NCBI GenBank assembly: GCA_017398595.1
Contig: JAFQFR010000038.1
Location: forward strand, 1 to 64,000
DNA from: Clostridia bacterium
GTDB lineage: Bacteria > Bacillota > Clostridia > Oscillospirales > CAG-272
Direction of reading: 5' to 3'
Length of the DNA: 64,000 bases
Under the pieces are notes generated by a model. The model worked only from the letters and a program-made list of their open reading frames with translations. It searched no databases and was not told the DNA's origin. This document shows positions 6,952 through 45,419 of the stretch, in pieces. How positions within the stretch are numbered: position 1 is the first letter of the stretch; the number at the start of each line of letters is the position of its first letter. A program made the translations under genes and the position numbers.

Positions 6952-7740
6952 ATGCTGCAAACCATTATTTCGATCGTACAAGAAGCCGCCAAGATCGCAA
7001 AGAGCGGCGCCGACACCGTCTGTGAAAAGGGCGCGGCAAACTTCGTCACCGACAAGGACGTTGCCGTGGAAAAGTTCCTGCGAGGCGCGCTGTATGAAGC
7101 CTTCCCCGCCATGGGGTTCGTCGGTGAGGAAGAGGACTTTGCTGCCGACGCGCTCGACAAAGAATACACCGCCGTGGTCGATCCGATCGACGGCACCATG
7201 AACTTTACCCGCGACATGAACCTGAGCGTGATCTCGGTCGCCGTACTGCACCGGGGCAAGCCGTATATCGGCGTGGTCTACAACCCGTGGACAGACGAGC
7301 TGTTCACCGCCGAGCGCGGCAAGGGCGCCGCTTTGAACGGAAAGCCCATTCATGTCTCCGACCGCCCCTTGAAAAGCGCGTGCTTTTTCACCGCGTGGAG
7401 CACCTACAAAAAAGAGTTTGCCAAGGCTTGCTTTTCCATCTCCGAGGAAGTCTACTACGACACCTGCGACATCCGCCGTCTCGGCGTTTGCGCGCTCGAA
7501 CTCTGCTACATGGCGGCGGGACGCGGCGAGCTCTACTTTGAGATCCGCCTGTTCCCGTGGGATTACGCCGCGGCGCAGCTCATTCTGACCGAGGCGGGCG
7601 GCTGCATCGGCACCATCGGCATGGATGCCCCCACCTACACACGCCCGCAGCCCATCGTCGCCGCCAATACAAAAGAAAACTTCGACTATCTGATGCAAAA
7701 AGTCACAAAATACGTACCCACCATCCCATACGAAGACTGA
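6952..7740 (+). CDS. Inositol monophosphatase family protein
   Basis: A Mg2+-dependent sugar-phosphate phosphatase fold of 262 residues. The metal-binding signatures are all present: GEE at 58-60, DPIDGT at 77-82 and WDYAA at 203-207. The family includes inositol-1-phosphatase and fructose-1,6-bisphosphatase-like enzymes, and the substrate cannot be set from these motifs. It sits 14 bases after lacZ with AGAGGA before the start, so the two are cotranscribed, which hints at a role in sugar-phosphate handling. Confidence 0.88.
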   Translation: MLQTIISIVQEAAKIAKSGADTVCEKGAANFVTDKDVAVEKFLRGALYEAFPAMGFVGEEEDFAADALDKEYTAVVDPIDGTMNFTRDMNLSVISVAVLHRGKPYIGVVYNPWTDELFTAERGKGAALNGKPIHVSDRPLKSACFFTAWSTYKKEFAKACFSISEEVYYDTCDIRRLGVCALELCYMAAGRGELYFEIRLFPWDYAAAQLILTEAGGCIGTIGMDAPTYTRPQPIVAANTKENFDYLMQKVTKYVPTIPYED

Positions 7741-7760
7741 AAAACGAAAGGATCATTCCC

Positions 7761-8519
7761 ATGACCGACCAAAAGACTATGGCGTATATCAACATGTTCG
7801 GCGTGCTGGGCGCACTGCCGATGCTGTGCAAGCTCGACAGCCAAGCCGCGGCACTCCTGACAGGCAAAACGCCCATCGCGCTCTGCCTGAGTGTCAAGAA
7901 CGGCCCTGCCGCAACCTTCACCTTTGCAGACGGCGGCTGTACGATGGAGAGCGGCGAGCAGAAATGCGACATCAAGATCCCCTTTTCGACCTGTGAAAAA
8001 TTCAACGGCATGATCGACGGCACCGTCACCCCCATCCCCTCGAAGGGATTTACCAAGATCGGCTTTTTGACGGGCCCGTTTATCAAGCTCACCGACCGCC
8101 TGTCCGCATACCTGCGCGCTTCCGAAAGCGATCTTGCAGACGAGCAGTTTTTCAACGTCAGCACCGAGCTGATGCTCTATGTCATCGGCGGTGCGGTCGC
8201 CGCCATCGGTAACTATGACAGGATCGGCTCGTTCAGCGCATCGAATACCCCCGACGGCATCGTGCATCTTTCGATCAAGGACGGTCCCTGCGCCACCGTC
8301 ACCGTGCGCGATCACAAACTGACCGCCGCGCCGGGCAGAAACGGCGATCCGCGCGCCGTCATGGAGTTTGCGAGCATCCGCCTCGCACGCGCGTTGTTTG
8401 ACGGCAAGGTCAACTCGATGGACTGCATCGGCAAGCAGACGATCACCATGCGCGGTATGATCTCCATGCTCGACAATATCAACCGCATTCTCGACAGAGT
8501 CGGTTTATACCTTGCATAA
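7761..8519 (+). CDS. Putative SCP2-like lipid-binding domain protein
   Basis: A 252-residue soluble protein without signal peptide or membrane segment. Two stretches (about residues 55-100 and 205-250) read like a sterol-carrier-protein-2 pattern of a beta strand rich in G, K and D followed by an amphipathic helix. The end, from GKQTITMRGMISML, resembles the SCP2 terminal helix. The assignment is tentative. It starts 20 bases after the phosphatase stop with GAAAGGA upstream, so it belongs to the lacZ operon. A role in hydrophobic-ligand binding in a sugar operon is unexplained. Confidence 0.45.
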   Translation: MTDQKTMAYINMFGVLGALPMLCKLDSQAAALLTGKTPIALCLSVKNGPAATFTFADGGCTMESGEQKCDIKIPFSTCEKFNGMIDGTVTPIPSKGFTKIGFLTGPFIKLTDRLSAYLRASESDLADEQFFNVSTELMLYVIGGAVAAIGNYDRIGSFSASNTPDGIVHLSIKDGPCATVTVRDHKLTAAPGRNGDPRAVMEFASIRLARALFDGKVNSMDCIGKQTITMRGMISMLDNINRILDRVGLYLA

Positions 8520-8525
8520 AGCCAT

Positions 8526-8644
8526 CACTTCAAAACCAAGGTTTTGAAGTGGAGGGGGTCGCTTACTCGCGTCGGCGCGCCGCATTCGCGGCACTTGCGC
8601 CCCCTTAAGGAGTTTTAAAGTCGGCGCATGTCCGCCTTTAAAAC
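8526..8644 (+). repeat. Structured three-hairpin intergenic element, copy 1
   Basis: Begins six bases after a stop codon. Helix 1 is CACTTCAAAAC/GTTTTGAAGTG (8526-8536, 8541-8551) with loop CAAG. Helix 2 pairs GGGGG-CGC (8554-8562) with GCG-CCCCC (8597-8604) and holds an inner GCCGC/GCGGC hairpin. Then comes TTAAGGA, and helix 3 pairs GTTTTAAAG (8612-8620) with CTTTAAAAC (8636-8644). Copy 2 lies between walR and walK at 43484-43616. Helices 1 and 2 show compensatory changes between the copies. Confidence 0.7.
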
Positions 8645-8670
8645 CAATTTATTATTTTCGGAGAAAAACG

Positions 8671-9909
8671 ATGGAACATAAGATCAACACCTACGAAAAG
8701 AGCCGTGCGCTGTTCGAGCGCGCGACCAAGGTCATTCCCTCCGGCATTTACGGGCACCAGGGACCCGCAGAGGGATGCTTTATCCCGGTGGAAGCCTTCC
8801 CCTTCTACTCGGATCACGCCAAGGGCAGTTACTTCTGGGATGTGGACGGCAACCGCTTCATCGACTACATGTGTGCCTACGGCCCGAACATTATGGGTTA
8901 TAACGACGAGGAGATCGACGAGGCGGCAAGACGGCAGATGGAAAAGGAAAACTGCGTCACCGCGCCCTCGGCGGTGATGGTCGAGTTTGCCGAGCTGCTG
9001 ACCGACACGGTCGCCACCGCAGACTGGTCGTTCTTCGCCAAAAACGGCAACGACGTCACCACCCTCGCGGTGATGACCGCACGCGCCTATACACACCGCA
9101 AGAAGATCGTCTTTTTCAAGGGCTATTACCACGGCGTTTCGCCCTGGACGCAAAAGATCGACTATCCCGGTATCATCGAAGAGGATGTTGCCAACAATAT
9201 CTATGTCAAGTGGAACGACTACGACGAGCTGGAACGCGTCTTTGCGGAAAACCGCGGCGAGATCGCGGCGGTCATTTCCCAGCCGTACATGCACGGCAAC
9301 TTCATGGACAACGAGATGCCCGCCGAAGGCTTTTGGGCAAAGGTGCGCAAAAAATGCACCGACGAAGGTACCGTGCTGATCGTGGACGATGTGCGCGCGG
9401 GCTTCCGCCTCGACCTTGCGGGCTCGGATCACTATTTCGGCTTTGAAGCGGACCTCATCTGCTTTTGCAAAGCGCTTGCCAACGGCTACAATGTCTCGGC
9501 ACTCTGCGGCAAAGAATTTCTCAAAAACACCGTCAGCGGCATGTCCTTCACGGGCAGCTATTGGATGAGCGCCGTTCCCTTTGCGGCGGGCATCGCCTGC
9601 ATCCAAAAGATGAAACGACTCGATCTGCCAACGCTTCTGATGCAAAAGGGTACGATGCTCTGCGACGGGCTCAAAGCCACTGCCAAAAAGCACGGCTATG
9701 ATCTGCGTGTCTCGGGTGCGCCGTCGCTCTTTTACCTGCGCATCGCCAACGACGACAGCCTGATGATCCATCAGCGCTTCATTGCGGAGATGGTCAAACG
9801 CGGCGTGTACCTGACGAGCCATCACAATCACTTCATCAATTACGCCCTCTCCGAAGCAGACATACGGGAAACCATCGAGATTGCAGACGAAGTGTTCCGC
9901 GTGCTGTAA
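8671..9909 (+). CDS. Class III aminotransferase, GSA-aminomutase-like
   Basis: A PLP-dependent fold-type I enzyme of 412 residues. It resembles glutamate-1-semialdehyde 2,1-aminomutase: N-terminal KVIPSGIYGH, a GYYHG segment, IVDDVRAGFR as the cofactor aspartate region, and the likely Schiff-base lysine Lys267 in CFCKALANGYN. True HemL has a GKVIGGG-type lysine motif and lies with heme genes. Neither holds here, so I leave the substrate open. CGGAG precedes the ATG. The structured element separates it from the lacZ operon, but both are co-directional. Confidence 0.8.
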   Translation: MEHKINTYEKSRALFERATKVIPSGIYGHQGPAEGCFIPVEAFPFYSDHAKGSYFWDVDGNRFIDYMCAYGPNIMGYNDEEIDEAARRQMEKENCVTAPSAVMVEFAELLTDTVATADWSFFAKNGNDVTTLAVMTARAYTHRKKIVFFKGYYHGVSPWTQKIDYPGIIEEDVANNIYVKWNDYDELERVFAENRGEIAAVISQPYMHGNFMDNEMPAEGFWAKVRKKCTDEGTVLIVDDVRAGFRLDLAGSDHYFGFEADLICFCKALANGYNVSALCGKEFLKNTVSGMSFTGSYWMSAVPFAAGIACIQKMKRLDLPTLLMQKGTMLCDGLKATAKKHGYDLRVSGAPSLFYLRIANDDSLMIHQRFIAEMVKRGVYLTSHHNHFINYALSEADIRETIEIADEVFRVL

Positions 9910-42774: not shown

Positions 42775-43482
42775 ATGGAAAACCAGCAAAAAAAGATCCT
42801 TCTCGTGGAGGATGAAAAAAGCATTTCGGACATCCTCGCCTTCAACCTGCGCAAGGCAGGCTTCACACCCGACTGCGCCTATGACGGCGAAGAAGGACTG
42901 CGCAAGGCGCTGACCGTGACCTATGACATCGTACTGCTCGACATCATGCTGCCAAAGCTCGACGGCTTCAAGGTGCTCGAGGGCATCCGCACGCGCAGCG
43001 ACGTGCCGGTCATCATGGTGACCGCGCGCGACGACGAAAAGGACAAGATCGCAGGCCTGGAAAACGGCGCGGACGACTATATCACGAAGCCGTTTTCGGT
43101 CAATGAGCTGATCGCGCGCATCCGCGCCAACATCCGCCGCAGCCGCGACGAGATCATCCAGACCGCCGCCGCAGAGGGCGGCGAGGTGCTCACCGTGCGC
43201 GGACTCTCGATCGACCGCGGACGCTATGTAGCGCGCCGCGACGGCGAAGAGCTGGAGCTCTCCAAAAAAGAATACGATCTGCTGCTCTTCCTCATGGAAA
43301 ACGTGGGTAAGCCCTTTTCCCGCGAGGATCTGCTGAGCAAGGTCTGGGGCTATGACAGTTTCCTCGGCGATGTCAACACCGTGGAAGTCACCGTATCCCG
43401 CCTGCGCAAGAAGCTGGAGAAGGACCCGTCCAACCCCGAGTATCTGATCACCAAGCGCGGCGTCGGATACTATATACAATAA
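42775..43482 (+). CDS. walR: Response regulator WalR (YycF)
   Basis: A 235-residue OmpR/PhoB-type regulator. The receiver domain (1-120) has acidic residues in LLVEDE, phosphorylated Asp56 in LLDIMLP and Lys in ITKPFS. The winged-helix DNA-binding domain (135-235) ends LITKRGVGYYIQ. The following kinase plus YycH and YycI identify the pair as WalRK, the essential regulator of peptidoglycan hydrolase genes. AAAGGAG precedes the ATG. Confidence 0.93.
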   Translation: MENQQKKILLVEDEKSISDILAFNLRKAGFTPDCAYDGEEGLRKALTVTYDIVLLDIMLPKLDGFKVLEGIRTRSDVPVIMVTARDDEKDKIAGLENGADDYITKPFSVNELIARIRANIRRSRDEIIQTAAAEGGEVLTVRGLSIDRGRYVARRDGEELELSKKEYDLLLFLMENVGKPFSREDLLSKVWGYDSFLGDVNTVEVTVSRLRKKLEKDPSNPEYLITKRGVGYYIQ

Positions 43483-43483
43483 G

Positions 43484-43616
43484 CACTGCAAAACCAAGGT
43501 TTTGCAGTGGAGGGGATCGCAAGCCTCGCGGCGCACTCAACCGTGCGCGATCCCGTAAGGAGTTTTAAAGTTAGCTAAAGCGCAGCTTTAGGTTGCGCAT
43601 TGTCCGCCTTTAAAAC
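43484..43616 (+). repeat. Structured three-hairpin intergenic element, copy 2
   Basis: Starts one base after the walR stop. Helix 1 is CACTGCAAAAC/GTTTTGCAGTG (43484-43494, 43499-43509) with loop CAAG. Helix 2 is GGGATCGC/GCGATCCC (43513-43520, 43547-43554). GTAAGGA follows, then helix 3 GTTTTAAAG/CTTTAAAAC (43562-43570, 43608-43616), whose loop holds an additional CTAAAGC/GCTTTAG stem absent from copy 1. Confidence 0.7.
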
Positions 43617-43649: not shown

Positions 43650-45419
43650 ATGCATAGAGGTCTCTATTTTAAGATCATTCTGATCCTTGTCGTGTTCATC
43701 CTGATCGTGATGAGCGTGGTCGGCGCGGTGCTGATCGCAAACGTGCTGGACTTTTACAACGACGAGTTTTCGGATTGCATGGCACAAAATTTCGGCGGTG
43801 ACGGGCAGCTGCGCGTCTACCTGGAAAACGCCATGGAAACAGCCGATGCAAGCGCGGCGGCGCAAAGCCAGAAGGCGATCCTCGCCTCTTACAGCTCGCG
43901 CCTCGGCATCGACGACTACCGCAGCTACTACATTTTAGACGCAGACGGCGGTTTCCTTGCGGGCAGTGACGCGCAGGGCAGCTCGCTCGCCAAAACGCCC
44001 AACCTTGTCGCCGCGATCGGCGGCGAAGTCGGCAATGCGCAAAACCAGGGACTCGGCTACGCAGACTATGCCCTGCCGCTGACCAAAGGCGACAACGCCT
44101 GCATCATCTACATCCGCGATACCCAGGAGGAGCTGCAGGAAGTCACCTGGATGCTCTTTTCCATCGTCTTGCAGGCACTGTTCGTAGGTCTGCTGATTGC
44201 GTTCGTCCTCTCGTTCTTCTTAGCGCGCGCCATCTCCCTGCCCCTGTCCAAGCTGACCGAGGGCGTACAGCGCGTCGCAAAAGGCAACTTTGCCGAGAAG
44301 ATCAGCGTGCAGTCGAACGACGAGATCGGCGTTTTGACCGAGAACTTCAACCGCATGAGCAGCATGATCGAGGAAAACCTGGACGAGATCAGCGGCGAGC
44401 GCGAAAACCTTGCCACCGTGCTCTCCTGCCTGAAAGACGCGGTCATCACCTTCGGCGACGACGGAAAGCCCCTGCAGATCAACGACGCGGCAAAAAAACT
44501 GTTCTCGAGTGCCGACCTGACGAGCCTCACGCTCGATTATATTTTCAGCCTACTCCACTACGACAAAGGCGGCATCGACGTTGACCTCGACGACGCGGCA
44601 AATGTCCCCGCCGTACAGTACAACGGCCGCGTGTATGAGCTGTATTTCGGCAATATCCGCTACCGCAACGCAGAAAAAATGCGCGAGGGCATCATCGTGG
44701 TGATCCACGATGTCACGCAGAGCTATGAGCTCGACCGCAGCCGCCGCGAATTCGTGGCGAACGTCTCGCACGAGCTGCGCACGCCGCTGACCACGATCAA
44801 AATGGTGCTGGAATCGCTGGCGGGCGACGATACCATCGCGGCAAACGAGATGACCAAGAGCTTCCTTTCGATGGCGGAGACCGAAAGCTCCCGCATGGAA
44901 GCCCTCATCAAGAACCTGCTCACCCTCTCCCAGCTCGACAACCGCACCGTGCAGCTGAACATAAGGCCGCTGAACATCACCGATTCGGTGGCGTCCATCG
45001 CAAAAACGCTCTCCTACACCGCCGAAAAGAAGGGGCAAACGCTCACCTTTGACGGTGTGTATGAGCCGATGACCGTAAACGGTGACAAGATCCGTCTGGA
45101 GCAGGTCATCATCAACATCGTTTCCAACGCGATCAAATATACCGGCGAGGGCGGCAAGATCCGCCTGGCTGTACAGGACGCGGGCAAGAATGTCGAGATC
45201 CTTGTCGCGGACAACGGCATGGGCATTCCCGAAGAGGATCTGCCGCGCCTGTTCGAGCGCTTCTACCGCGTGGAAAAAGCGCGTAACAGCGACAAGGGCG
45301 GCACGGGACTCGGCCTTGCGATCGCCAAGGAATTTGCCCTTGCCCACGGCGGCGACATCCGCGTGGCAAGCAAGCTCGGCAAAGGAACCGTATTTACCAT
45401 CATTTTACCCAAAGCATAA
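43650..45419 (+). CDS. walK: Sensor histidine kinase WalK (YycG)
   Basis: A 589-residue membrane kinase. The first helix is at about 8-32, then an extracellular PAS-like domain (about 35-165), a second helix (about 167-193) and a HAMP domain. A PAS-like domain (about 260-365), the HisKA domain with His374 in VSHELRTPLTT, and a C-terminal ATPase domain (NAIKY, DNGMGIPEED, GGTGLGLAI) follow. AAAGGAT precedes the ATG. It is separated from walR by the structured element, unusual for this normally tight pair. Confidence 0.94.
   Translation: MHRGLYFKIILILVVFILIVMSVVGAVLIANVLDFYNDEFSDCMAQNFGGDGQLRVYLENAMETADASAAAQSQKAILASYSSRLGIDDYRSYYILDADGGFLAGSDAQGSSLAKTPNLVAAIGGEVGNAQNQGLGYADYALPLTKGDNACIIYIRDTQEELQEVTWMLFSIVLQALFVGLLIAFVLSFFLARAISLPLSKLTEGVQRVAKGNFAEKISVQSNDEIGVLTENFNRMSSMIEENLDEISGERENLATVLSCLKDAVITFGDDGKPLQINDAAKKLFSSADLTSLTLDYIFSLLHYDKGGIDVDLDDAANVPAVQYNGRVYELYFGNIRYRNAEKMREGIIVVIHDVTQSYELDRSRREFVANVSHELRTPLTTIKMVLESLAGDDTIAANEMTKSFLSMAETESSRMEALIKNLLTLSQLDNRTVQLNIRPLNITDSVASIAKTLSYTAEKKGQTLTFDGVYEPMTVNGDKIRLEQVIINIVSNAIKYTGEGGKIRLAVQDAGKNVEILVADNGMGIPEEDLPRLFERFYRVEKARNSDKGGTGLGLAIAKEFALAHGGDIRVASKLGKGTVFTIILPKA

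Follow-up and report, generated by a model that had tools for sequence, protein, structure and literature searches.

The window analysed here, a stretch of 64,000 nucleotides, holds two intergenic elements that fold alike, and the question they raise is whether they are an RNA, a mobile repeat or both. An earlier note had left this as a choice between an undescribed RNA and a structured mobile repeat, and had proposed a covariance-model search, a test of covariation and a comparison with Rfam. The evidence from the two window copies alone is weak; 98 copies make the case for the structure strong. The best explanation, and in our view a probable one, is a new family of short, non-autonomous mobile intergenic repeats, found in the order of the host MAG (rumen and gut Clostridia, Oscillospirales-like), whose resident copies would most likely act as an mRNA element.

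Architecture of the two window copies

The two copies and their neighbouring genes are laid out as follows.
7557..8519, + strand: ORF upstream of copy 1, ending 6 nt before the element, start uncertain; no Pfam match
8526..8644, + strand: copy 1, whole element H1-H2-linker-H3; covariance model R1 80.5 bits, E 4.5e-14 in the genome; fold z -5.44
8526..8551, + strand: copy 1 hairpin 1 (H1), perfect 11-bp stem with CAAG loop; sequence, fold
8552..8606, + strand: copy 1 hairpin 2 (H2), base GGGGG/CCCCC, branched interior with ACTCGCGT and GCCGCATTCGCGGC hairpins; fold, family-wide covarying outer stem
8606..8611, + strand: copy 1 linker TAAGGA; unpaired, conserved motif
8612..8644, + strand: copy 1 hairpin 3 (H3), GTTTTAAAG/CTTTAAAAC enclosing the conserved loop GGCGCATGTCC (8623-8633); sequence, covariation, loop conservation
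8645..8658, + strand: copy 1 3' tail, AT-rich, CAATTTATTATTTT (AAGATTTTATTAT in the family); missing at the empty site of a sister species (G003, locus L267)
8671..9909, + strand: gene downstream of copy 1, class-III aminotransferase; Pfam PF00202, E 2.5e-39
42775..43482, + strand: gene upstream of copy 2, response regulator; PF00072, PF00486
43484..43616, + strand: copy 2, whole element; R1 75.7 bits, E 4.5e-13
43484..43509, + strand: copy 2 hairpin 1; sequence, fold
43513..43554, + strand: copy 2 hairpin 2, GGGATCGC/GCGATCCC, branched interior; sequence, fold
43556..43561, + strand: copy 2 linker TAAGGA; sequence
43562..43616, + strand: copy 2 hairpin 3, with a hairpin module inserted at 43571-43607; sequence, fold
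43650..45419, + strand: gene downstream of copy 2, sensor histidine kinase; PF02518, PF00512, PF00672

Sequence and fold bear out the three-hairpin architecture that had been ascribed to both copies, with a CAAG-loop H1, a G-rich H2, TAAGGA and an H3 of GTTTTAAAG/CTTTAAAAC. The predicted minimum free energies are -56.7 kcal/mol for copy 1 and -59.7 kcal/mol for copy 2, and 0/200 dinucleotide shuffles were as stable in either case (z of -5.44 and -5.25, respectively). The H1 arms differ between copy 1 (CACTTCAAAACCAAGGTTTTGAAGTG) and copy 2 (CACTGCAAAACCAAGGTTTTGCAGTG) by one compensated pair, and comparison of the two sequences confirms the claimed T-A to G-C change. For H2 the earlier description is partly right: it is G-rich and changed on both arms, but it is not a simple helix, since in many copies two small hairpins branch from it at a three-way junction. 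The extra hairpin within H3 of copy 2 is TTAGCTAAAGCGCAGCTTTAGGTTGCGC, and the same insert is found at L014, L018, L019 and L022. The AT-rich tail of copy 1 is probably part of the inserted unit.

Both elements were said to start one to six bases past a stop codon between co-directional genes, and they do: the distance from TAA is 6 nt for copy 1 and 1 nt for copy 2, and the flanking ORFs are co-directional. Genes around copies were called with a codon-scored caller, and the ORF upstream of the 8526 copy was assigned by hand; its C-terminal DNA is conserved in G003. Family-wide, the genes adjoining element copies are unrelated to one another.

Spread and covariation of the family

The host MAG comprises 1.88 Mb in 57 contigs and is 75% complete. 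The proposed covariance-model search returned many copies in this genome and its relatives. Model R1, built from 14 own-genome copies, finds ~32 copies of ~110-170 nt in the genome, and 1, 9, 25, 20 and 21 matches in five other genomes of the genus; a few more come from the wider family and order. Among the weakest of these matches, a few are copies already counted, read on the opposite strand. A 15-nt linker/H3 pattern with at most two mismatches occurs at 30 places in the own genome, one of which (L030) is a chance match. With model R2, built from 98 copies, the element is patchily distributed, in 34/394 genomes and 18/169 genera of the order. In a phylum sample of 398 genomes R2 matches two, both of the same order, and none outside it. 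The named matches to the H3 pattern are ruminant-gut 'Clostridia' and 'Oscillospiraceae' MAGs. Spread by phage was rejected, as the H3 pattern gave 0 matches in viral contigs. The unrelated neighbour genes, the patchiness and the absence from most relatives together imply that the element has no essential role. At one locus (L279, genome G164) three copies stand in tandem with a 183-bp period.

Across the family, a short loop closes the nearly perfect H1 stem, which runs to roughly 8-13 bp. The outer stem of H2 covaries, and most copies have two hairpins inside it, their loops near UCGC and UCACC. In H3, which follows the UAAGGA linker, the outer stem measures 9 bp and the loop reads GGCRCAUGUCC. 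Both H2 and H3 accept optional inserted hairpin modules. Unpaired and loop motifs are conserved across the family while the stems vary. In a genus-dominated set 97.0% of cells are paired, and the covariation score is 0.516 compared to 0.145 for shuffled alignments (0/500 shuffles reach it; slid controls ≤0.145). The order-wide alignment is 94.5% paired and scores 0.735, compared to 0.176 for shuffles and ≤0.159 for slid controls. This alignment was fitted to the covariance model, a bias toward pairing that alone does not explain the signal, because the shuffles and slid controls stay so far below it. Double changes occur at 29/35 pairs in the genus and 35/35 in the order, and the covariation test comes out far above shuffles.

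G-U pairs occupy 54 cells, half of them at one position, against 30 for A-C, and 26 against 30 when that position is left aside. As G-U is hardly commoner than A-C, pairing may be kept partly at the DNA level; in most RNAs evolving by point mutation, G-U pairs are not so scarce. Two further candidate features were rejected. A small ORF starting from the H3-loop AUG behind AAGGAG would lose its AUG in L008, L021, L026, L029 and L088, and its spacing is 15 nt. For a linker-loop pseudoknot, inspection revealed that variation between AAGGAG and AAGGTG does not track the loop. In other families of the order (L207-L209, L281, L285 and L293) a fourth hairpin, TTCCGTCACCTGCGGGTGACGGAACTCTGCGAGG and variants, lies 3' of H3, its stems likewise altered on both arms.

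Comparison with Rfam matched no known family in the window or at the own-genome and order-wide loci. With Rfam 15 at the gathering threshold there were 0 matches in the window and nothing over the element in four own-genome loci, and at relaxed E none of the matches at 14 order-wide loci was convincing. We found no description of the repeat in the open-access literature.

Mobility and placement

The element is mobile, as shown by empty sites, terminator duplication and exchange of terminal repeats. We sorted the copies into classes A, B and C by a heuristic of our own. Some copies bear terminal inverted repeats (TIRs), with inverted ends GAGACTGTCGAAAAA/TTTTTCGACAAGCTG and TAAATTAATGATTAT/ATAATCATTAATTTA, plus a terminator duplication. 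Class A comprises ~30 copies, mostly with H1 = CTGTCGAAAAACC..., for which TTTTTCGACAAGCTG is the matching right end. In most, an intrinsic terminator lies 4 nt upstream and recurs as a direct repeat downstream (16-43 bp), a duplication well above that in shuffled flanks, and their orientation relative to genes is random. Class C, ~17 copies in G004 and G005, lies within TAAATTAATGATTAT or TAAATTAATGTTTTAAT ends; ~12 of those in G005 are nearly identical, several at contig ends. In G004 (L312 and L314, around position 1500) class-C ends (TAAATTAATGTTTATA...) surround unrelated cargo, CATCTCCGCCCGAGATCGC...CGAACGGAGCACAAGGAACC.... The same ends with other cargo, and the at least two different sets of ends around the core, imply that the three hairpins form a module on which no single MITE has a monopoly. 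Class B, which includes both window copies, comprises ~55 copies without such ends, and neither TIRs nor terminator duplication were seen in copies of this kind.

Sites without the element are found in the sister species G003 at four loci: L198/L261, L199/L227, L175/L251 and window 8526/L267. At L198/L261 and L199/L227 the G003 site carries a single terminator copy. In place of the 8526 copy, G003 has the spacer TAA-GGAGGGACGAACC-ATG, which suggests that this copy inserted at the stop codon, loss in G003 being less likely. At L194 the stop codon comes from the inserted element. Elsewhere, some element-bearing spacers of one species hold arrays of other, short palindromes (GATATG..., AAATCATG...) in the sister species (L219, L237, L245 and L268 in G003). 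The own genome also has solo H1 palindromes (GGCTGTCGAAAAACCAAGGTTTTTCGACAAGC and variants) without H2 or H3 at L033, L041, L042, L045 and L046, several of which adjoin terminators or stop codons.

A hairpin-recognising transposase would explain the terminator-sized duplications. An autonomous partner with a class-A end was not found in the own genome, nor one with a class-C end in G002, G004 and G005, all of them incomplete MAGs. Two candidate mobilisers were rejected: IS1182 transposase, of which there is none in the six genus genomes (incomplete MAGs), and IS200/RAYT (Y1), for which 2/6 genus MAGs have matches, without element-like ends. The REP/RAYT pairing of a 20-40 nt palindrome with a Y1 (RAYT) transposase encoded in one genome was not found. 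An intact IS200-type TnpA lies at L213 (G000:C45:27816-28172), and RAYT-like ORFs at L217 (G000:C38:108506-108775) and L215 (G002), the latter containing GTAGGGGAGGGG-type palindromes.

TIR-less copies are placed in a markedly non-random way. In codirectional gene pairs 37/45 are in sense orientation (P 1.5e-5), or 30/37 when orthologues are counted once (P 1.9e-4), compared to 12/26 of TIR copies (Fisher P 0.006). Among class B copies with a sense upstream gene, 34/45 start between -15 and +7 nt from the stop codon; with orthologues counted once, a post-stop start is seen in 29/46 class B copies versus 1/46 of classes A and C (P 1e-10). A short spacer may simply tolerate insertion nowhere else than at the post-stop site. 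Several class B positions are common to sister species. They include the 43484 copy, whose site is filled in G003 (L131) with common flanks 89-90% identical, L117/L183 (presumably a metA-like locus), L151/L123 (which we take to be a grpE/dnaK-like locus) and a site beside an 873-aa gene in three species. In seven orthologous comparisons at six loci, 66 pairs changed, of which 42 were kept by double and 8 by single changes and 16 were broken. Shared copies show whole-arm changes.

Mobile DNA, a probable resident RNA and known repeats

Could the repeat be purely selfish? It would then be a structured MITE whose fold counts at the DNA level alone, single-stranded or cruciform, where a hairpin-reading transposase acts on it; hairpin-templated repair would keep the arms complementary, and the RNA would be a by-product. 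A transposase that seeks out hairpins is suggested by the terminator-sized target duplications and by the solo H1 palindromes that adjoin terminators, and the scarce G-U without excess over A-C, the whole-arm changes in shared copies and the presence of the module on different TIR sets all agree with this reading. However, TIR-less copies are strongly sense-biased and post-stop, the conserved loops are not located at the ends, and copies common to diverged species retain both fold and loops, which a dead insertion would not need. We regard a purely selfish MITE as possible but rather doubtful. The complex fold, the conserved loops and the downstream start codons, usually ~15-60 nt past H3, would also suit a cis-regulatory leader of the downstream gene, riboswitch-like or a protein-responsive attenuator. 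This is quite improbable: the genes that follow copies are of unrelated kinds (an aminotransferase and a histidine kinase among them), many copies lie in antisense or after a terminator, and on the + strand neither window copy has an intrinsic terminator, with its GC-rich hairpin and ensuing T run. The same lack of a + strand terminator, together with the absence of a promoter-like site upstream of H1 at the window copies and the many copies embedded 0-7 nt past stop codons, makes an independent small RNA gene family most improbable, despite the conserved fold and loops.

Of the two branches of the initial alternative, the mobile one is established by the empty sites, duplications and TIR exchange, while the selected RNA is supported by the sense and post-stop bias, the conserved loops and the retention of pairing in shared copies. 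The RNA branch falls short of proof, since hairpin-templated correction or folded-DNA transposition would also keep the arms complementary, and G-U is rare. To judge from sequence, an RNA role, as an mRNA 3'-end or intercistronic element, is likely. In our preferred explanation of a mobile repeat with resident mRNA function, a transposase supplied in trans would give mobility. Class B copies would be co-transcribed with the upstream gene and fold in the mRNA just past the stop codon, where the element would most likely act structurally at the 3' end or between cistrons, by influencing how stable the mRNA is, how it is processed or how unevenly the two genes are expressed. The conserved loops may be bound by a putative protein. 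More tentatively, and with rather less than even confidence, we suggest an order-wide RNA module with conserved binding loops (GCUCGCG, A-GG-GU, GGCACAUGUCC) that hitch-hikes on different MITE ends and is kept by the host as a post-stop intercistronic control element to which a dedicated protein binds.

In many gut genomes the family is a feature that annotation has missed. With 35/35 covarying pairs, empty and filled sites and copies common to sister species, it offers a clean and densely sampled system in which to ask how mobile repeats become resident RNA elements, and its terminator-duplicating insertions point to a hairpin-reading transposase.

It is a real, undescribed family of mobile structured repeats, of a kind already known; its modular spread and post-stop placement set it apart as a new form of that kind. 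IS1272 (IS1182 family) targets inverted-repeat (hairpin) sites and replaces its target without duplication (PMC5678879). Hairpin sites seem likewise to be targeted here, but the hairpin is duplicated and the six genus genomes yielded no IS1182 transposase. RUP of Streptococcus pneumoniae, a 107-bp mobile intergenic repeat, seems to be mobilised in trans by the transposase of an IS (PMC2229807); unlike RUP/BOX, the window repeat has no partner IS that we could find and shows strong structural conservation across an order. CIR of the alpha-proteobacteria is a ~110-nt repeat with two linker-joined hairpin arms, a conserved loop motif and an unknown mobility mechanism (PMC2229807), whereas the window repeat has three hairpins, a loop motif other than GANTC, TIR-bearing forms and hosts in another phylum. 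The window repeat also differs from ERIC, a single long imperfect palindrome, in its three separate hairpins and its hosts. The proposed mRNA-level role is modelled on ERIC and the bcr repeats as precedents. In Yersinia, ERIC/IRU is a 127-bp mobile intergenic repeat that is co-transcribed with its neighbours and whose effect on upstream mRNA depends on its orientation (PMC2229807); bcr1-3 frequently occupy UTRs and the spacers of operons, and bcr3 shows a correlation with longer half-life of mRNA (PMC3446304). We set the window repeat apart from bcr1-bcr3 by its different order and its three hairpins with conserved loops, and also because it is a module within several TIR sets, with terminator duplication. 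The bcr1 repeat is ~155 bp long and has a conserved RNA fold. Like bcr1-type repeats of the Bacillus cereus group, the window repeat combines a fold kept by compensatory change with insertion polymorphism, a kinship in kind rather than demonstrated homology.
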